Virus record (IMG/VR): IMGVR_UViG_3300024518_002533
Span: 1-53,352 of that record
Direction: 5' to 3' (one strand)
DNA from: a virus
DNA length: 53,352 bases
In this document: one piece after another, positions 21,956-53,352 of the stretch
Layout of the letters: each line of letters starts with the position of its first letter
Numbering within the stretch: position 1 is the first letter of the stretch
Notes under the pieces: model-generated
What the model was told of the DNA's origin: nothing
The model's input: only the letters and a program-made list of their open reading frames with translations
Databases searched by the model: none
Program-made: the position numbers and the translations under genes

Positions 21956-23098
21956 CTACGCTGGTGTGTAAAGGTCAGCCCAGAACCAAGCTTGGGGAAC
22001 GTAGGGCGTAGGCAATCCGTTATCCAAGGCAACAAGCGACAGACTAACTGGATGCCGGTTCGGCTCCAGCCACATCGTCATACCATACGCCTCCCGGATT
22101 GGTCCCTGCAACCGCTCCTGAACAAGCTCCGAACCGTTACGCCATTCTATCCATTCCGAACTAGGCGCTGGAGTGAACAGCCCCTTTCCAGGAGGGATGA
22201 ACGGAACAGCTGTGCCATCGTCCAGCAATACTTCGTCGTCGTAAACAATGAACTGAATCATTGGGTAACCACGAAGATGGAATGTCAACACGTTCGACAA
22301 TTGCCGCTCGGGGTTGTTCGATTCCCAAGTGATATGCTGCCCTTCGTTCGTGATCACGTTCGCCGTACCGGTATGAGTATTCACCGCTTCGGACTTCAGC
22401 AAGTATTGAGCACCTTCAGCGTCCAGCCAGCAGAGCTGAATCGGGTAGCGGCTGCCTTTGACTGCCACTTTGTTCAGCGTAATAAATTCGCCGATTGGGT
22501 CGCAATTAACCGCGTCCTGCCAGTTGCCCGCGAACGTGTCTTTACCGCCATGAGGTACGGCGCCTTGATTGCTCGCCGGCAATCCAAAATCAACGTTGTA
22601 GTCTCCTGACCCAACCGGCACGGGCATGATGTCGTCCCCGTCCAGCAGCAGATCGAATCCACCTTGGAAGCAGAACGCCGTCAATGCTTCTCGGGTGTTC
22701 ATGAATTTTTCATGCTGATACCCAATCTGCTTGGTGATGTATTCCTGTCCTCGGACGTCCAAGGCACCGATGGGGCCACCTAGCTTACGCTTGCGAAAAA
22801 TGCGATCGCCTTCGATTGGAATCTGCTCGTACTGACGATAGACCGTCGCGGTCTTGGTCCCGACCAGGTTCGGCTTTCGTGTCGCCGGTCCAGAGTTTCG
22901 CAGACGCCCCGAGGACATCTTTCGCGTCCTGTCGAAGATATCCCAGCCGAATACCTCACCGCCGATGTCCGAAACGGCTGAACCGCCTGGCTGGAGCCCG
23001 TATATTTGCGATAGCCGGTGATTTGGTGAGCGCACGGTCGAAATGATTCGATCAATCACGACATGATTGAAGAGTTCCGAATAGGTGGCAGCAGCCAT
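21956..23098 (-). CDS. Major capsid protein, lambda gpE family-like
   Basis: 380 aa starting MAAATYSELFNHVVID, with AAAGGAAATCAACA upstream. The C-terminal pattern YGMTMWLEPNRHPVSLSLVALDNGLPTPY-type ending, the MNTREALTAFCFQGGFDLL helix and the REAYG-W motif match the gpE-type HK97-fold capsid family. Preceded by a decoration-protein gene and protease/scaffold gene, the normal order. A strong terminator follows it. Forms the capsid shell. Confidence 0.85.
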   Translation of the reverse strand: MAAATYSELFNHVVIDRIISTVRSPNHRLSQIYGLQPGGSAVSDIGGEVFGWDIFDRTRKMSSGRLRNSGPATRKPNLVGTKTATVYRQYEQIPIEGDRIFRKRKLGGPIGALDVRGQEYITKQIGYQHEKFMNTREALTAFCFQGGFDLLLDGDDIMPVPVGSGDYNVDFGLPASNQGAVPHGGKDTFAGNWQDAVNCDPIGEFITLNKVAVKGSRYPIQLCWLDAEGAQYLLKSEAVNTHTGTANVITNEGQHITWESNNPERQLSNVLTFHLRGYPMIQFIVYDDEVLLDDGTAVPFIPPGKGLFTPAPSSEWIEWRNGSELVQERLQGPIREAYGMTMWLEPNRHPVSLSLVALDNGLPTPYVPQAWFWADLYTPA

Positions 23099-37730: not shown

Positions 37731-39269
37731 TCAATGCGCGCTCATTGCCGAGGTACTGCCAAGCACGTTCTGCGTCAGCCAGATACCTAGATACGCCGTG
37801 ACGTCAACCTGGTCGTCGGTCTCATCGTCGGCGCCCGTCCACGTGAAAATCTCGTCTTCGTAATCGTCCAACCACGGTGGTCCAGGGTCCGGGAGAAGAA
37901 TCTTGCCCTCCTTCATACGTGTTGCCGCGTCGAACGAACGGCTCACTTTGTCTTTGCCCTGCGTCTTAAACGCGAACATTGGCAAGCCCTCCCGCTGGCA
38001 TTGCTGGTACAAGTGCGTTGACTGCGCTGTGAATTCCATTCCGACCGTGCGAACGCTGTCGCGGCCCATTAGAATCTGCTGCTTAATATTCGGGATGATG
38101 TCTGGCATTTCCTCCTGCACGCGCTCGACGTGAATCAACAACGCGTCTTTCTGCGGTGTGATTATCCAACGAGAAATAACCGTCCAGCTTGCTTTCTTGC
38201 CGATCAACGTACGCCCTGGCGTGTCCTTCGTGCTGCTCGCAGGGTCGACGATAATAATCTGGTAGCAATCCGCGATGTCGAAGAAAGTACCCGTGTCGAG
38301 CCATACCGTACCTCTTCCGTCCTTGCCGATCCCGTGATACCGCCAACGCTTTAGCCACGCGCGACGGAAACGAGCGTCAGCAACAACCGCCCAGTTTCCC
38401 GCCAGTAATTGTTCCATCGTCACCGGGTCGGACATCTCAGAAAGCTGCTGTGTGTAGTCCTCGACATCTAGAAACGGGTTGTCATGCACGAAAGCCGCGA
38501 TATGTGGCCTCGCCTGAATAATCCGACCCTTCTTTCCTATACGCGGAGACGTGAACCGTCCCGCATACAGTTGCTCTCCGGCTGGACCGCGCATTCCTGG
38601 AATCTTTCCAATGTCGTACCGTCGCTTGACGTAAAGATGCCCCCGATTCCCTGGATTGCTCGCGCACCGCACGCGAAGCGGAAACTTGGCGGTATGCCAG
38701 TAACGCTTACAGTAGTCGCACGATGGATTTCTCTGGTCTTTGTGAATCTGGCAAGTTGGCTTCCGTAATCTAGAGTTAACGACGTATTCAAATTGGTGCG
38801 GCTTGAATTGCGTAAGTTCGTCCCAGCCAAGAAAAGCGAATTCCGCCCCTTGCTGTTTAAGATGGTCGTCTTTCTGGTCCATGCCGCCGAATGCCAGCGT
38901 AGCGCCCGATGGAAACCGCCAACGCTGCCCGCCTTTCTCCTGCTTGGCATCGGTGTCCACCAACCACTCTCGAGCCCGGAACATGATGGACGATTCGTTG
39001 TCAGCATCCGCCAGCGTCAGACGAAATATCTTGGCGTGGTAGTCCTTGCAATCGACGTACTGCAGGGCTTCCATCAACAGCCAGTCGCTTTTGCCACCGC
39101 CGGCAGCTCCCCCGTAGAAGACCTCGCGAACGTGGTTCAAACACATCGCCGCGCGTTGCTTCTTGGTCGGGCGATTCGGAATGTACCGCGTCAGCCTCGG
39201 ACGAGTACGCCGGCGAAATGCTGGCGACTTTAGAACGGCTTCGCGGATCGGCGTTGTGGCGGAGATCAT
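37731..39269 (-). CDS. terL: Terminase large subunit
   Basis: 512 aa. The ATPase has Walker A GGAAGGGKSD (about 53-62) and Walker B-like FAFLGWDELTQF (about 145-156), with SNPG following. The nuclease domain carries IIIVDPASSTKDTPGRT and QVDVTAYLGIWL near the end, with the acidic residues expected of an RNase H-like nuclease. It packages DNA into the prohead. Followed by a virion gene; no clear small terminase was recognised, though the gene at 42967-43608 is a candidate. Confidence 0.9.
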   Translation of the reverse strand: MISATTPIREAVLKSPAFRRRTRPRLTRYIPNRPTKKQRAAMCLNHVREVFYGGAAGGGKSDWLLMEALQYVDCKDYHAKIFRLTLADADNESSIMFRAREWLVDTDAKQEKGGQRWRFPSGATLAFGGMDQKDDHLKQQGAEFAFLGWDELTQFKPHQFEYVVNSRLRKPTCQIHKDQRNPSCDYCKRYWHTAKFPLRVRCASNPGNRGHLYVKRRYDIGKIPGMRGPAGEQLYAGRFTSPRIGKKGRIIQARPHIAAFVHDNPFLDVEDYTQQLSEMSDPVTMEQLLAGNWAVVADARFRRAWLKRWRYHGIGKDGRGTVWLDTGTFFDIADCYQIIIVDPASSTKDTPGRTLIGKKASWTVISRWIITPQKDALLIHVERVQEEMPDIIPNIKQQILMGRDSVRTVGMEFTAQSTHLYQQCQREGLPMFAFKTQGKDKVSRSFDAATRMKEGKILLPDPGPPWLDDYEDEIFTWTGADDETDDQVDVTAYLGIWLTQNVLGSTSAMSAH

Positions 39270-39469: not shown

Positions 39470-40321
39470 CTACAAAAAACATCCGTCTTCACATTCGCCA
39501 TCGTCCTCGAATAGCGTGCCCTGCCCTTCGTCTAGATTCGCTTCGCTGAGAGGGACGCAAGAGCGGTGGGCGTACATGTTTTCCTTCATGCCGCGGCTTA
39601 CGACAGCCGTCTCGTCTCTCAACGTCTCGTCTACCTCAACCGCTCGCTTCCAGGCCTCGCGGTCGTGTTGCTTGATTTCCCGCCAATGCCTATTCGCCTG
39701 CAGGGGGCAGAACGAGCACCGCGAAGACCTCCACCCAAAACCCGACCGCTCCGTTATGTACTGCGTTGCGTCGTGGCGAGTCATCAACAGATCTTCATCG
39801 AACAGAGGAAACCCGCAGTTCCACTGGATTCCCCGCTGCTTGTACTGGGCCTGCATCCGCGTAGCCCGGCCCGATTCGTCTGTCGAAAAACCAAATAGAC
39901 TCGTGATCGTTACGTCCTTCGGTATTCGTTGCCGTGGCTTCAGCTTTAGCATTTCGTAGCGTATCCACTTCTCAATGGGGGCAATCTTGTATTCTCGCGT
40001 GCATTGTCGACGCGTGAGCCCGCCCTTCTCGCCTTCGACAAACGTCGTGTGAGCAGGGATAGATGCAAACCGCCGCTGGCCTTTCGCGGTGTAGACACCA
40101 ACTGCCAAGTCTTCACCTATCTTGCCTGCGGTAACCTCGACAATCGGCGGTCCGTCCAATGTCTTCAGCCAGTTGAGTTGCTCATATACCCACTTCGGCT
40201 CCTCCTGCGTATCGGAGAAGACAGCGTAGTCAGCTGGCTCAATCTCTCCATTAACCATCAATGCGTAGATAGCACCCGACTGCACGCCGGCCCCGAGGTT
40301 TAGAATGCGGTAATTCTTCAT
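39470..40321 (-). CDS. PAPS-reductase-like PP-loop ATP pyrophosphatase family protein
   Basis: 283 aa starting MKNYRILNLGAGVQSGAIYA, with TAGGAACGGC upstream. The LNLGAGVQSGAIYALM start is the PP-loop of adenine nucleotide alpha-hydrolases; YAVFSDTQEEPKWVYEQ is the following strand, and RRQCTREYKIAPIEKW the C-x3-Y-K-I-P motif of PAPS-reductase relatives. RCSFCPLQ may bind iron-sulfur or metal. It may take part in thiol or base modification chemistry, possibly with the DpdA-like enzyme; not shown. Flanked by 20-bp direct repeats. Confidence 0.75.
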   Translation of the reverse strand: MKNYRILNLGAGVQSGAIYALMVNGEIEPADYAVFSDTQEEPKWVYEQLNWLKTLDGPPIVEVTAGKIGEDLAVGVYTAKGQRRFASIPAHTTFVEGEKGGLTRRQCTREYKIAPIEKWIRYEMLKLKPRQRIPKDVTITSLFGFSTDESGRATRMQAQYKQRGIQWNCGFPLFDEDLLMTRHDATQYITERSGFGWRSSRCSFCPLQANRHWREIKQHDREAWKRAVEVDETLRDETAVVSRGMKENMYAHRSCVPLSEANLDEGQGTLFEDDGECEDGCFL

Positions 40322-41288: not shown

Positions 41289-41534
41289 TCAAGGGCGTCC
41301 TCCGTATGTTTCTTGCCACGTGCGGTCTACTAGGCGTTTTCTTGCTTGTTTCGCCTTCAGTTTATTCGCCGCGGTTGGGTTTTCCCTGGCTGCCGTGGCT
41401 GCCCTCACATGCCTAAAGCCGAGTTCATCCGTCGATGGCCGCATAGCGATGGCGACCACAACGAGCACCACGGAAAGAATGCAGGCCCCCATCATTGCCG
41501 CGATGGATCCCATGATGATGCAGAGAAGTTTCAT
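41289..41534 (-). CDS. Small membrane protein
   Basis: 81 aa, MKLLCIIMGSIAAMMGACIL start with one membrane segment to about residue 30 (VVLVVVAIAM), followed by a basic helical tail (RHVRAATAARENPTAANK, KQARKRLVDR). The start overlaps the stop of the PEP-CTERM hydrolase gene by ATGA. Not recognised. A terminator follows. Confidence 0.6.
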   Translation of the reverse strand: MKLLCIIMGSIAAMMGACILSVVLVVVAIAMRPSTDELGFRHVRAATAARENPTAANKLKAKQARKRLVDRTWQETYGGRP

Positions 41535-42253
41535 TGTTTTACCTTTCGGGTGATTGAAAGTGCAGCACCCAGGACAGCCAGCAGCGTAAACGCCGACGGC
41601 TCCGGTATGCTCATCGGTTGCCAGACTGGAAACCAGTTACGACCAGCTGTAATCGCCCCGCGCCCGTTTAGATGCAATCCATCTGCGGCGGTGCTCTCGG
41701 GTCCAATCTCGCTGAAATTGTCGATGTATCCGATCTGCTGCCCTGCGGCTCGCCTGGCGTTGATGTTGCTGAGCAGCGTTGAATTCCACTCGATCACGCG
41801 CGGCTGCTTGTGAGCCCAGCCGTATCGAAATGTCGTAACGTTGGCGACTAGGATGATCGCGCTGCTGTGGGCAAATCCATAATCAACCAGTGCGTCAAGG
41901 TCCGCCTCGATCGATGCCATTGACGCCTCGCCGGCGACGTCGTTGTAGCCGCCTAGGATTGTGATCACTTCGGGCGAGTACCGCGTTAATGCGTCCGTTA
42001 GCCCGTCCTGGTTGCTCGTCCCGGTGAGCATGTGCTCGAAGCGAAAACCACCATATCCCTGGTAGGAGTAATCGTTGCCGAGCCATGTCTGCTCAGTGTC
42101 GCCCACAAAATCCGGCGTGATGCTCGGTAGCAGATCGATCTCGAATCCTAGGCGAGTACCGACAGCGGTTGATACGCTGTCACCCGTCGAGAGGACTATC
42201 AGATCAGCATATGTGATAGATGCGAATAGTGAGAGTAGTATTGAGAGTCTCAT
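41531..42253 (-). CDS. Secreted SGNH/GDSL hydrolase with PEP-CTERM signal
   Basis: 240 aa. Signal peptide MRLSILLSLFASITYA. SGNH blocks: VLSTGDSVSTAVG (GDS serine, about 23), ITILGGYNDVAG (G-x-N-D block III, about 97), and ADGLHLNGRG (D-x-x-H block V, about 192). The C-terminus, SIPEPSAFTLLAVLGAAL then a basic RKVKQ, is a PEP-CTERM sorting signal recognised by exosortase, giving an anchored or processed outer surface product. A phage gene with this signal implies an exosortase host. Likely modifies surface ester or glycan groups. Confidence 0.8.
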   Translation of the reverse strand: MRLSILLSLFASITYADLIVLSTGDSVSTAVGTRLGFEIDLLPSITPDFVGDTEQTWLGNDYSYQGYGGFRFEHMLTGTSNQDGLTDALTRYSPEVITILGGYNDVAGEASMASIEADLDALVDYGFAHSSAIILVANVTTFRYGWAHKQPRVIEWNSTLLSNINARRAAGQQIGYIDNFSEIGPESTAADGLHLNGRGAITAGRNWFPVWQPMSIPEPSAFTLLAVLGAALSITRKVKQ

Positions 42254-44405: not shown

Positions 44406-44645
44406 TTAGTTTTTCGGTCGAAGTTCCATCTTAAGCTCTGCGGCAATCGCAGACACATACCTGGAGTTTAGCGCGATATGGACGCGTTTTATATTTCCGT
44501 CTTCGTCGCTGCGGTTCATTCCGTGGAGATACCGATGGATAGTCCCTGGGTCCATTTTGATAGCCTTCCCGATGGAATAGCTGCTCCTGTCGAGCTGCAG
44601 GGCCCTCTTAGTGAGCGCCTTTCGTATTGTGTCGTTGCCTTTCAT
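44406..44645 (-). CDS. Small HTH DNA-binding protein
   Basis: 79 aa. Residues 12-45 show a helix-turn-helix: ALQLDRSSYSIGKAIKMDPG, then TIHRYLHG, in the Cro/XRE style with the recognition helix at MDPGTIHRYL. The C-terminus is helical. It may regulate the early region together with the repressor at 47653. Confidence 0.65.
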   Translation of the reverse strand: MKGNDTIRKALTKRALQLDRSSYSIGKAIKMDPGTIHRYLHGMNRSDEDGNIKRVHIALNSRYVSAIAAELKMELRPKN

Positions 44646-44863: not shown

Positions 44864-44921
44864 ATTCGGGAATCGCCCGAGCGAGGGGCGCCCGACATGG
44901 GCGCCCCGGTTGTTGGTTGGG

Positions 44922-45110: not shown

Positions 45111-45380
45111 TTAGAGAGTTTCAACGTCGAATAGATCTCTGTGCCTTGGCTTCCAATCGGAGCCCTTGGCAAACATGCTTAGCTGCTCGCCACTGTTGTT
45201 TTCGAACCTTGCCGGCTTCGGCTCCGTTGCTGGTGCTCGGGCGAGTGCGAATTTTGCTCTTGCTACTGCCTCGTCATCAACTGGGTTGACCAGCTCGGGG
45301 TGACCCATGTCGCAAGCTTCCAATGCGTCCGCTGCTGCTGCGTAAGTTTCAAAGCTTCCGAGGGGTGTTTCGTATCGCAT
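45111..45380 (-). CDS. Small early protein
   Basis: 89 aa from MRYETPLGSFETYAAAADAL at 45380 (ACAAGGACAAGGCC upstream). The C-terminal segment EQLSMFAKGSDW resembles the QL-S/D-L-F motif that binds the sliding clamp, so it might bind host DNA polymerase III clamp; this is a guess from a short motif. Driven by the early promoter at 45421-45449. Confidence 0.6.
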   Translation of the reverse strand: MRYETPLGSFETYAAAADALEACDMGHPELVNPVDDEAVARAKFALARAPATEPKPARFENNSGEQLSMFAKGSDWKPRHRDLFDVETL

Positions 45381-45420: not shown

Positions 45421-45480
45421 ATCTTATCGGCATCCGTGCCGATAGTCAATAGTGTATTTCACCAATTTGGAGATTATTTT
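45421..45480 (-). promoter_or_regulatory. Early promoter E4 with embedded operator
   Basis: On the minus strand TTGACT (rc of 45444-45449) and TAAGAT (rc of 45421-45426) are 17 bp apart. The spacer holds CGGCATCCGTGCCG (45428-45441), arms CGGCA/TGCCG. Upstream lies the box AAATAATCTCC then AAATTGG (45461-45480). It drives the gene at 45380. One of four promoters with this layout. Confidence 0.8.
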
Positions 45481-45592
45481 CCGTTCAGTTTTTCGAGTGC
45501 CTCGATAGCCTTATATAGCTTGTCTTCGTCGACGGTTACCTGATCCGGGCGGACGTTGATGCTCCCGCAGTTGTTTCTGCTTGGAGTGACAT
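45474..45592 (-). CDS. Small ORF, apparently frameshifted
   Basis: An ATG at 45592 after CACAAGGACAGAAAC opens a frame MSLQAETTAGASTSARIR that stops after 18 codons. In another frame a coding-like run INVRPDQVTVDEDKLYKAIE, then ALEKLNGK, ends at 45474, without its own start. The two may be halves of one gene broken by a one-base indel, about 39 aa in all. Confidence 0.35.
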
Positions 45593-45626
45593 GTTTCTGT
45601 CCTTGTGCGGGTTCCGCCCGTGCGGG

Positions 45627-45770
45627 TTACTGAGTAACGGAGATAAAAACGGTTAGAAACGGAGTACCTGGCTTGGCGATTAGAACCGCAAGAAGAAGTC
45701 GGAAACCGCCCATTTTTACGATTTGCTTTGCGTTACGAAGCGTGTTCCATTTGTTGATGACTCCTGGCAT
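45627..45770 (-). CDS. Small hydrophobic early protein, 47 aa
   Basis: Starts MPGVINKWNTLRNAKQIVKM at 45770 with AAAAGGACGGAAGC upstream. A basic amphipathic start is followed by a hydrophobic stretch, FRLLLAVLIAKPG then PFLTVFISV, so it is likely a small membrane protein. Driven by the early promoter at 45834-45861. Confidence 0.6.
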   Translation of the reverse strand: MPGVINKWNTLRNAKQIVKMGGFRLLLAVLIAKPGTPFLTVFISVTQ

Positions 45771-45833
45771 GCTTCCGTCCTTTTTTCGAGGTCCGCTCGG
45801 GCGGTCGTTGGCGTTGTGCCTCAGATATAAGTA

Positions 45834-45882
45834 AGTATAAGCAGTGTTGCCGATAATGCAACACCAAAACGGAGATTATTTG
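45834..45882 (-). promoter_or_regulatory. Early promoter E3 with half operator
   Basis: Minus strand TTGCAT (rc of 45856-45861) and TATACT (rc of 45834-45839), 16 bp apart, with GCAGTGTTGCCG in the spacer: right arm TGCCG intact, left arm changed. The box AAATAATCTCCG then TTTTGGTG lies just upstream, and its TAA is the stop codon of the gene at 45876. Confidence 0.75.
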
Positions 45883-46067
45883 GAAATAAGTTTTTCGAGG
45901 CTTTCGCGTGCGCTGGACAACGTTTCCGTGATGCGCTTCGTGCGCTGCTCAATGCGTGCCTGCGTGGCTGCTTCGGCTTCGGCTTCTGCTTGGCAGCGGA
46001 GTAGCTCAATTCGTTCGCCGGTTGCCATGTAATTCGATTCAATTGTTCTGATTTGGTTTCGTGTCAT
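45876..46067 (-). CDS. Small coiled-coil early protein
   Basis: 63 aa starting MTRNQIRTIESNYMATGERI at 46067 with GGAGAAAAACG upstream. Fully helical, Ala/Glu/Arg-rich (CQAEAEAEAATQARIEQRTK, then RESLEKLISK), likely a coiled coil. Its stop codon lies inside the conserved upstream box of the next promoter. Not recognised. Confidence 0.6.
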   Translation of the reverse strand: MTRNQIRTIESNYMATGERIELLRCQAEAEAEAATQARIEQRTKRITETLSSARESLEKLISK

Positions 46068-46124
46068 CGTTTTTCTCCAGGTAAAAAGCACGAAGCGCCC
46101 CGAGGGGCGCGGTGGTGGTTGGTG

Positions 46125-46394
46125 TCAAACGTAGAGAGGCATCAGAGTATCGCGTACAACGCGGTACGCGATGGTGTAGGCCGATAGCAGCGTATAGCCA
46201 TCATCGTCCATCAGGCGGCATGTCTCGCGAGCATGATGCCGTTTGACTTCGTTGGAGTAAGAATTGAGCTGGATGCCCATCGAGCAAACGTGGTTCAGGT
46301 CAAAATGGTCCTGGGGCAGTTCCGAGTCGATCCAACCGTCGACAATGTTTTCGATTCGAAGCTGTTCGCGGGAAAGCTGGTTGAATTTCGACAT
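46125..46394 (-). CDS. Small early protein
   Basis: 89 aa starting MSKFNQLSREQLRIENIVDG at 46394 with AAAGGAAAACGA upstream. Mostly helical (RHHARETCRLMDDDGYTL) with a C-terminal YRVVRDTLMPLYV. Not recognised. Driven by the promoter at 46458-46485. Confidence 0.6.
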   Translation of the reverse strand: MSKFNQLSREQLRIENIVDGWIDSELPQDHFDLNHVCSMGIQLNSYSNEVKRHHARETCRLMDDDGYTLLSAYTIAYRVVRDTLMPLYV

Positions 46395-46457
46395 TTCGTT
46401 TTCCTTTGTCCCGGTCCCGCCGGTGCGGTGTGAGGTTGTTTCCCTCATCTATTTACA

Positions 46458-46515
46458 AGTATAGTCACTGATGCCGACAATGCAAGAGCAGAAGCACCAT
46501 TTCGGAGATTATTTC
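46458..46515 (-). promoter_or_regulatory. Early promoter E2 with diverged operator
   Basis: Minus strand TTGCAT (rc of 46480-46485) and TATACT (rc of 46458-46463), 16 bp apart. The spacer has TGCCG at 46472-46476 on the plus strand, but the partner arm is changed (GTCA). The box GAAATAATCTCCG then AAATGGTG lies upstream; its TAA is the stop of the gene at 46509. Confidence 0.75.
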
Positions 46516-47192
46516 TCAATTACTTTTACGCGGCTTAATTCGGTCTGCTTTTCGCCCTGATAGTCGCTGTGTTTCTTCACGGTTGCGGTTACTTCCATCG
46601 ACTCGCCATTTTCAAAACATCGTTTCGAGTTGCCGATTAGGTCTTTTGTCTTCCAGACGAACACGTTGCCGTCCTGGTCCTCGAATCGGTGTATCCAGGT
46701 CATACCGTAGAAGCCGTCAAAGCTTTTCGCAAACGTTAGCGTCAGCTCAAACGTCTGGCGGCTTTTGACGTCTCCGACATGTTGCGAGATACCTTTTTTG
46801 GCTTCGCGTTCCTCGGCTCGCTTCTGGTCCAGCTCGGCGAACGTCAGCCGACCGTGCCCGTTGCGTTCTGACCAATCTCGTTGACCTTCAAGCTGATTCT
46901 CTTTTTGGGCTAGTCGTTTCTGCCGTGCTTTCTCCTGCGATTTTAGCTGGCGTTGGATTTTTTGGGCGAAAGCTTTAACCGGGATGCGGTTAACGATCCC
47001 TTTGGTATTTTTGCCGAGACACCTGTAGCAGATGCCGCCATCCTGAAACCAAGGACCGCGACCAGAACCGCCGCAACGTTCGCATGCTCCGCTTTGCTCG
47101 ACTTTCCCGTCGGTGACTACTGCCCAGCTTGCATGCTCTGCAAGGTACTCTGTTGCAATCTTGTCGTTTGTGATTCTTACTGCTGTTGTCAT
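46509..47192 (-). CDS. Zinc-finger early protein
   Basis: 227 aa starting MTTAVRITNDKIATEYLAEH at 47192 (CAAAGGAAAACACG upstream). CERCGGSGRG (about 37-46) and CYRCLG form a DnaJ-type C-x-x-C-x-G-x-G zinc finger. Residues 70-135 are a basic helical linker (KSQEKARQKRLAQKENQL). The C-terminal 90 residues are beta-rich (FELTLTFAKSFDGFYG, MEVTATVKKHSDY), OB-fold-like, suggesting nucleic acid binding. Confidence 0.65.
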   Translation of the reverse strand: MTTAVRITNDKIATEYLAEHASWAVVTDGKVEQSGACERCGGSGRGPWFQDGGICYRCLGKNTKGIVNRIPVKAFAQKIQRQLKSQEKARQKRLAQKENQLEGQRDWSERNGHGRLTFAELDQKRAEEREAKKGISQHVGDVKSRQTFELTLTFAKSFDGFYGMTWIHRFEDQDGNVFVWKTKDLIGNSKRCFENGESMEVTATVKKHSDYQGEKQTELSRVKVIEK

Positions 47193-47262
47193 CGTGTTTT
47201 CCTTTGTTCGGGATCCGCCCGAGCGGGACGCCTCGCGGAATGCGAGGCGTCTTGGGTTGTGG

Positions 47263-47484
47263 TTATCGGTTCTCGGTACGCTCGAAATATCGCGTTTCGC
47301 GTGGGTCGGTTCGGCATAGGTCGTAGATTCCCCTCGATGCTTCGACGATGCCAACGCCCTTTGCTCGTACGTTGATTGTTTCGCCGAAGTTAAAATTGTT
47401 GCCGATTCGCATAACGACAATGCCATACATTGTGGTTACGTGTCCTCGATTCAGCTTGGCGAGTTCGATTTTGATTAGGTCCAT
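47263..47484 (-). CDS. Small early protein
   Basis: 73 aa, MDLIKIELAKLNRGHVTTMY start with CCAGGACAAGACA upstream. Beta-rich (IVVMRIGNNFNFGETINVRA). Not recognised. First gene after the early promoter at 47521-47549. A GC-rich hairpin GACGCCTCGC/GCGAGGCGTC lies downstream. Confidence 0.65.
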   Translation of the reverse strand: MDLIKIELAKLNRGHVTTMYGIVVMRIGNNFNFGETINVRAKGVGIVEASRGIYDLCRTDPRETRYFERTENR

Positions 47485-47520
47485 TGTCTTGTCCTGGGTG
47501 AGAGTTGTCGTCTGCTATTA

Positions 47521-47580
47521 ACTATAACGGCAGTGCTGCCGATAGTCAACAACCTTTTTAACCAATTTGGAGATTATTTT
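47521..47580 (-). promoter_or_regulatory. Early promoter E1 with perfect operator
   Basis: Minus strand TTGACT (rc of 47544-47549) and TATAGT (rc of 47521-47526), 17 bp apart. The spacer holds CGGCAGTGCTGCCG (47528-47541), arms CGGCAG/CTGCCG. The box AAATAATCTCC then AAATTGG (47562-47579) lies upstream. It drives the gene at 47484 and lies about 70 bp from the start of the divergent HTH gene. Confidence 0.8.
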
Positions 47581-47652
47581 GGAAGTATCCGAAACGGGGA
47601 CAATAGACTACAATCCCCAGGTGACTCGGACGAAGAACAGATAGGAGCCAGA

Positions 47653-47883
47653 ATGGCTAAGACAGCAACACGGACGCCAGCCAACGAGCTATTCGGCGCA
47701 AACCTCAAATACTACTTAGACGAGAACGGGTTAAGCGCCGCGCAATTCGCCGACCAGCTGGGAGTCGCTAAGCAAACCGTTTTCCGTTGGCTCAACGGCC
47801 GGATCCCAGAGTCACCCCACCTCGACAACTGCGCTGAGGCGTTGGGGCTGGACGTCGCGGATTTATTCGTCACCGACGAATGA
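47653..47883 (+). CDS. XRE-family HTH repressor
   Basis: 76 aa starting MAKTATRTPANELFGANLKY at 47653 with ATAGGAGCCAGA upstream. The HTH runs LSAAQFADQLGVAKQTVFRW then LNGRIPE, with recognition helix KQTVFRWLNG; C-terminal helices (LDNCAEALGLDVADLF). It is divergent from the early promoter and is the best candidate to bind the CGGCA-N4-TGCCG operators. There is no peptidase domain, so it is not a LexA/CI-type cleavable repressor. Confidence 0.75.
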   Translation: MAKTATRTPANELFGANLKYYLDENGLSAAQFADQLGVAKQTVFRWLNGRIPESPHLDNCAEALGLDVADLFVTDE

Positions 47884-53161: not shown

Positions 53162-53352
53162 TCATCCATCGCCAGAGCCAGAGCCATAGCCATAGCCATA
53201 GCCAGAGCCAGAGCCATAGCCATAGCCAGAGCCAGAGCCAGAGCCATCGCCAGAGCCATCGCCATAGCCATAGCCATAGCCAGAGCCAGAGCCAGAGCCA
53301 GAGCCATCGCCATCGCCAGAGCCAGAGCCAGATCCATCGCCATCGCCATAGC
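53162..53352 (-). CDS. Gly-Tyr/Ser/Asp dipeptide-repeat protein, C-terminal part
   Basis: Continues the Gly-X frame from the left end of the window. About 62 codons of G-Y, G-S and G-D end GDG at a TGA (53164-53162). One unit reads GGA instead of GGC, a silent change only in this frame. A simple end-to-end join shifts the frame; dropping one base of overlap restores it. Total visible length is about 122 aa, more if repeat units were lost in assembly. Confidence 0.6.
   Translation of the reverse strand, partial: YGDGDGSGSGSGDGDGSGSGSGSGYGYGYGDGSGDGSGSGSGYGYGSGSGYGYGYGSGSGDG
53165..53352 (-). repeat. Hexanucleotide tandem repeat, right end
   Basis: Same CCAGAG/CCATAG/CCATCG units as at 1-166, same orientation. 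One variant unit, CCAGAT. Runs off the window. Confidence 0.97.

Follow-up and report, generated by a model that had tools for sequence, protein, structure and literature searches.

Four promoter-like sites with a common operator dyad and upstream box: a putative distributed-operator early regulon in a viral genome

Introduction

Do four promoter-like sites that carry the same sequence elements upstream of short viral genes constitute a single regulon, and, if so, which protein would control it? The window analyzed here, which comprises an entire virus record, is 53,352 bases long with a G+C content of 54%, and most of its genes run leftward. The four sites, designated E1 (47.55 kb), E3 (46.49 kb), E2 (45.86 kb), and E4 (45.45 kb), lie on the minus strand at the head of a leftward gene series that runs to the terminase. 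We consider it likely that they form a distributed-operator early regulon whose repressor is probably a 76-aa HTH_3 protein; within this model, promoter activity, the identity of the repressor, the role of the upstream box, and early timing are predictions. Such a regulon would be compact and testable in a poorly characterized phage group, with one candidate repressor, one operator, one box, and four promoters.

Setting of the record

The record encodes a large terminase (37731–39269), a PAPS-reductase-like protein (39470–40321), a major head protein (21956–23098), and, near its left end, a replication initiator, exonuclease VIII, and RecT. Neither a tyrosine nor a serine integrase was found in the record, and a lysogenic role for a repressor is therefore not assured. 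Positions 1–80 and 53273–53352, the two ends of the record, both consist of GCCAGAGCCATAGCC repeats of one kind, a pattern suggestive of an assembly that broke within a repetitive gene, the genome being circular or permuted. Judged by eye, the product of 41531–42253 (minus strand) is GDSL-hydrolase-like, carries a signal peptide, and ends in a PEP-CTERM-like tail (IPEPSAFTLLAVLGAALSITRKVKQ); these features point tentatively to a host from a group such as Planctomycetes or Verrucomicrobia.

Promoter-like sites and the operator dyad

Each of the four sites comprises a promoter pattern, TTGNNT-N16/17-TANNNT, whose spacer carries the TCGGCA arm of a CGGCA-N4-TGCCG dyad. At E1, the minus strand reads AAATAATCTCCAAATTGG-TTAAAAAGGTTG-TTGACT-ATCGGCAGCACTGCCGT-TATAGT, and E3, E2, and E4 keep this order of parts. 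The sites fall into two subclasses, all coordinates below being on the minus strand. The first, E1 (TTGACT-17-TATAGT, 47521–47549) and E4 (TTGACT-17-TAAGAT, 45421–45449), combines a TTGACT hexamer and a 17-nt spacer with a perfect dyad: CGGCA-GCAC-TGCCG at E1 (47528–47541) and CGGCA-CGGA-TGCCG at E4 (45428–45441), the latter having 8-bp arms, TATCGGCA/TGCCGATA. The second, E3 (46458–46485) and E2 (45834–45861), shares TTGCAT, a 16-nt spacer, TATACT, and a half-degenerate dyad: CGGCA-TCAG-TGACT at E3 (46463–46476) and CGGCA-ACAC-TGCTT at E2 (45839–45852), each retaining three of the five right-arm bases. The left arm, TCGGCA, is present at all four sites. The claim of two perfect and two diverged operators, made in an earlier sequence-only reading, is thus borne out. 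That reading took the graded operator quality to suggest ordered expression; alternatively, E2 and E3 may represent a second promoter subclass in which the right arm is constrained by the −10 element.

The perfect TCGGCA-N4-TGCCG dyad occurs twice in the record, exclusively at E1 and E4, against approximately 0.05 occurrences expected, and the minus strand of the 53 kb contains just five TTGNNT-N16/17-TANNNT sites, of which E1–E4 are four. A general promoter scan of 40.0–53.4 kb returned seven promoter-like sites against 8.5 expected and hence no excess; by their hexamers alone, E1 and E4 were not above chance, and E2 and E3 fell under the scan threshold. Since the general scan shows no excess, the case for promoter function depends on how the features combine and where they lie: at every site, promoter-like hexamers at the correct spacing flank the putative operator. 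No clear intrinsic terminator was found ahead of E2, E3, or E4.

Upstream box and its spacing to the dyad

Upstream of each of the four minus-strand promoters lies a box with the pattern AAATAATCTCC-R-WWW-TGGTK, and all four boxes are exact AAATAATCTCCRWWWTGG matches on the minus strand. The box reads AAATAATCTCCAAATTGG at E1 (47562–47579) and E4 (45462–45479), AAATAATCTCCGAAATGG at E3 (46497–46514), and AAATAATCTCCGTTTTGG at E2 (45864–45881). As had been claimed from the letters, two of the boxes hold the preceding gene's stop codon, the TAA inside the E3 box terminating the 227-aa gene and that inside the E2 box terminating the gene before it. A separate open frame at 45474–45592 (minus strand; ...LYKAIEALEKLNGK*) is closed by the TAA of the E4 box; this frame lacks a good start codon and is out of frame with the ATG that has a Shine-Dalgarno-like stretch; a frameshift or an error in sequencing may be involved.

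With up to three mismatches allowed, the box was found four times in the record against 0.24 expected, and all four occurrences were free of mismatches. On a scoring matrix, E1–E4 scored 31–34 bits, compared with 13 for the next best site, a separation biased by the construction of the matrix from the same four sites. The AAATAATCTCC core is the only dispersed 11-mer that occurs four times in the record, the remaining repeated 11-mers belonging to two short repetitive families of the GCGGAACCAG and GCCAGAAGAG types. The exact boxes, together with the dyad and promoter-pattern counts, confirm the original description of four near-identical promoters with a shared operator and an upstream box.

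Any two boxes are identical at 16–19 of 20 positions. The linkers between box and −35 agree between sites at just 2–5 of 9–10 positions, and the 60 nt downstream match at 15–19 positions in five of the six site pairs (32 of 60 for E2/E3). Because box and dyad are kept while linkers and leaders have diverged, the sites are under selection and are not remnants of one recent duplication. Between the TGG of the box and the −35 element, the gap is 12 nt at E1, 11 at E3, 2 at E2, and 12 at E4; between box and CGGCA, it is 20, 20, 11, and 20 nt, respectively. At E3, the linker is 1 nt shorter, which is offset by a step from −35 to dyad that is 1 nt longer, and the E2 gap is shorter by 9 nt, near one turn of DNA. 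Across these four sites, two of them alike, the spacing suggests that box and dyad function jointly. Conservation and spacing to the dyad make it possible that the box is an activator binding site. Two other interpretations of the box were ruled out by eye: a plus-strand ribosome site, since no start codon follows downstream, and an UP element, given the CTCC core.

A candidate repressor and a proposed mode of control

A 76-aa Cro/CI-type HTH_3 protein is encoded at 47653–47883 on the plus strand, divergent from E1. It matches Pfam HTH_3 (E = 1e-10) and a PHROG family of transcriptional repressors (E = 7e-13), and its predicted structure has five helices at a mean pLDDT of 76.5; in a Foldseek search, the repressor domains of 434 and P22 were among the weak matches, the best E-value for any chain being 0.0036. 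The protein lacks a C-terminal domain. The annotated repressor of Nitratiruptor phage NrS-2, to which it is 42.6% identical over 59 residues, is longer; NrS-2 was rejected as a same-operator parallel, the divergent region of its repressor being devoid of a CGGCA-type dyad.

The sequence-only reading had named this gene as the likely repressor. Its divergence from E1 and its standing as the only HTH_3 protein in the record hold, and a dyad of two 5-bp arms around a 4-bp center suits a dimer of this fold, as in the 434 and P22 operators; the repressor role itself we infer from these features. It is plausible that the 76-aa protein represses E1–E4. No perfect dyad was found in 47583–47652, just upstream of its own gene.

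Under the favored model, four host-type (sigma-70-like) promoters would each drive a single small operon whose genes are short and unrelated. The CGGCA-N4-TGCCG sequence between −35 and −10 would serve as the operator, at which a bound protein would block RNA polymerase. The 76-aa Cro/CI-type protein, divergent from E1, would be the likeliest repressor and would silence all four promoters together, with repression strongest at E1 and E4, where the dyads are perfect. At a set distance from the dyad, the box would offer a further protein-binding site, which might serve an activator or a co-operating protein. That a regulon of four promoters shares a common operator is well supported by these sequence features and by the independent set of 18 analogous cassettes described below, and genes sharing this operator are probably expressed at the same stage.

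Alternatively, dyad and box may be bound by a host regulator or another phage protein, in which case the HTH gene would not regulate E1–E4. Adjacency is all that ties the HTH gene to the dyad, and a second candidate is available in the 79-aa product of the gene at 44406–44645, which looks HTH-like by eye and matched no family above the cut-off; its structural model (mean pLDDT 46.5) was too poor to serve as evidence. Against this stands the presence of one recognized HTH_3 gene in the record, located at the very start of the array, and we regard control by a different regulator as unlikely.

Genes under the promoters

All genes assigned to the four putative operons lie on the minus strand, and downstream of each promoter is a gene with a purine-rich Shine-Dalgarno-like stretch. 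The E1 operon begins with a 73-aa gene of no family (47263–47484), followed by the gene for a 227-aa CxxCG-type zinc-ribbon-like protein (46509–47192). The first genes of the remaining operons encode proteins of 89 aa (E3; 46125–46394; no family above the cut-off), 47 aa (E2; 45627–45770), and 89 aa (E4; 45111–45380). Searches of the small proteins under E1–E4 against PADLOC, Pfam, and NCBIfam returned no match above cut-off.

Analogous cassettes in distant relatives

Homologues of the 227-aa protein were identified in two short contigs, L011 (51% identity over 124 residues) and L012 (39%). In both, the homologue belongs to a set of small cargo genes between terminase and portal genes (L011, 4280–6700; L012, 1020–3100; portal named by eye), where each gene or gene pair is headed by its own TTGACT-N17-GATNNT promoter, often accompanied by a terminator. 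The −35 element and spacer of these promoters form a different dyad, TTGAC-N6-GTCAA, and the 227-aa homologue lies under one such dyad-bearing cassette. A pattern search added six contigs, bringing the total to 18 cassettes, all differing in sequence, in eight relative contigs; an intrinsic terminator stands in front of many, and every one of them lacks the AAATAATCTCC box. Because the pattern used to collect the 18 sites included the dyad, its conservation among them is partly by construction; with three mismatches allowed, no further same-orientation promoter without the dyad was found in the same contigs. No HTH_3 gene was present in the three relative contigs examined, which are too short to show a regulator.

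The occurrence of 18 analogous cassettes in eight distant relative contigs indicates a recurrent phage design, not a local accident. Taken with E1–E4, these cassettes suggest that phages differing in their operators keep one plan, in which each small cargo operon has its own regulated promoter. The motif search in relatives that the sequence-only reading had proposed had a divided outcome: analogous cassettes with another dyad were recovered, and no relative with the box was found.

Wider searches gave the same picture for the box. No homologue of the 76-aa protein was confirmed in viral contigs. The box combined with GGCA gave nine matches in viral contigs, the loci listed being those with an exact box; none had an array, and they were taken as chance. 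The box combined with any promoter gave three matches in viral contigs, none with a convincing promoter array, and the box with promoter and CGGCA was absent from a collection of genomes covering 85,000 species. For TTGACTATCGGCA-N4-TGCCG, seven matches were obtained in viral contigs, most resembling coding DNA of unrelated phages; one of them, L020, was set aside as a single promoter-like site at a gene end, at about the chance level estimated for such a collection. A terminase-based search recovered a single distant relative, which lacks such repeats. Among the collections searched, the box was found in no relative and is private to this record.

The L011 and L012 cassettes also bear on a second alternative, in which E1–E4 are constitutive, individually promoted cargo cassettes (morons), the repeats serve chiefly as homologous tracts through which phages exchange cassettes, and no phage protein uses the dyad as an operator. 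Lambdoid morons are small cargo genes with their own promoter, inserted singly and with unrelated promoters. The L011 and L012 genes resemble them in having their own promoter and terminators, and promoter-leader segments of 94–122 nt are repeated there between unrelated genes, with terminators ahead of the segments; in the window, moreover, the E2 and E3 boxes lie directly against the stop codons of the preceding genes. However, box and dyad have been kept in the window despite the divergence of linkers and leaders, recombination needs no perfect dyad in a promoter spacer, and E1–E4, unlike lambdoid morons, share operator and box and are not separated by clear intrinsic terminators. We judge this explanation improbable.

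Mycobacteriophage stoperators are asymmetric and are not known to need a promoter, which weighs against assigning E1–E4 to that class. Phage stoperators spread across a genome are known (PMC9283540), and E2–E4 do belong to a single leftward series of genes, no clear terminator standing ahead of them, but at every site a promoter-like pair of −35 and −10 elements encloses the dyad, so it is highly doubtful that the sites are roadblocks or stoperators in a long leftward transcript at which a protein bound to dyad or box halts polymerase arriving from upstream promoters.

Comparison with known systems

One operator at many promoters, like repeated intergenic motifs, is already known in phages; what is additional here is the private box. 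In SPbeta, the master repressor MrpR binds a repeated element, SPBRE, that recurs in several of the phage's own promoter regions (PMC10516654). The present locus is similar in that the same operator sequence recurs at several phage promoters (TCGGCA at four of four, the perfect dyad at two). MrpR, however, has a tyrosine-recombinase fold (PF00589, for which no match was found in the record) and recognizes a 15-bp element, whereas here the candidate is a small HTH_3 protein, the dyad is a 14-bp 5-N4-5 sequence, and the sites lie within 2.1 kb.

Short repeats, asymmetric or dyad, in small intergenic regions before small genes have also been reported in actinobacteriophages, including the 17-bp dyads of Cluster O (PMC4351075), the motifs of Microbacterium clusters EC and EG (PMC7302621), four of which lie between terminase and portal in EC, and the SAS/ESAS of Cluster K (PMC3203893). 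The position of the L011 and L012 cassettes between terminase and portal parallels that of the EC motifs. In the sections of these reports available, the motifs are not described as lying inside a promoter spacer with a second box at a fixed distance, and their functions are given as mostly unknown.

A further parallel is found in SIRV2, in which a consensus regulatory sequence of early genes occurs together with Aca8 (PMC11065993). In both systems, a promoter and regulatory sequence are common to unrelated small genes, among which a small HTH regulator is encoded. SIRV2 differs in its archaeal BRE/TATA promoters, its winged HTH, and its known anti-CRISPRs, whereas no small product of the present locus matches a PADLOC model. 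One feature of aca-type anti-defence operons is nevertheless present here, namely a small HTH protein beside small genes with a promoter dyad. Extending the favored regulon model, the locus might be a host-takeover or anti-defence island in which the short E1–E4 genes serve counter-defence or takeover and are governed by an Aca-like 76-aa repressor and by a phage-specific activator that binds the box, itself in register with the dyad; we regard this extension as speculative and rather unlikely. Were it correct, promoter arrays with exchangeable operators would help to locate anti-defence genes in a phage group that has been little studied.

Additional sequence elements between the genes

Strong G+C-rich hairpins with nine G–C pairs each are located between genes of the series at 44885–44907 and 47224–47254; they precede start codons and have no clear T run after them. 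A second repeat occurs on the minus strand at 47196–47226, 46398–46428, approximately 45780–45805, and 45595–45625, just upstream of start codons, in the leaders of the 227-aa gene and of the genes starting at 46394, 45770, and 45592. It consists of a small CCGC-NCGG-GCGG hairpin with CCCG and AAAGGA after it, and may act on translation, in the manner of start-associated sequences.
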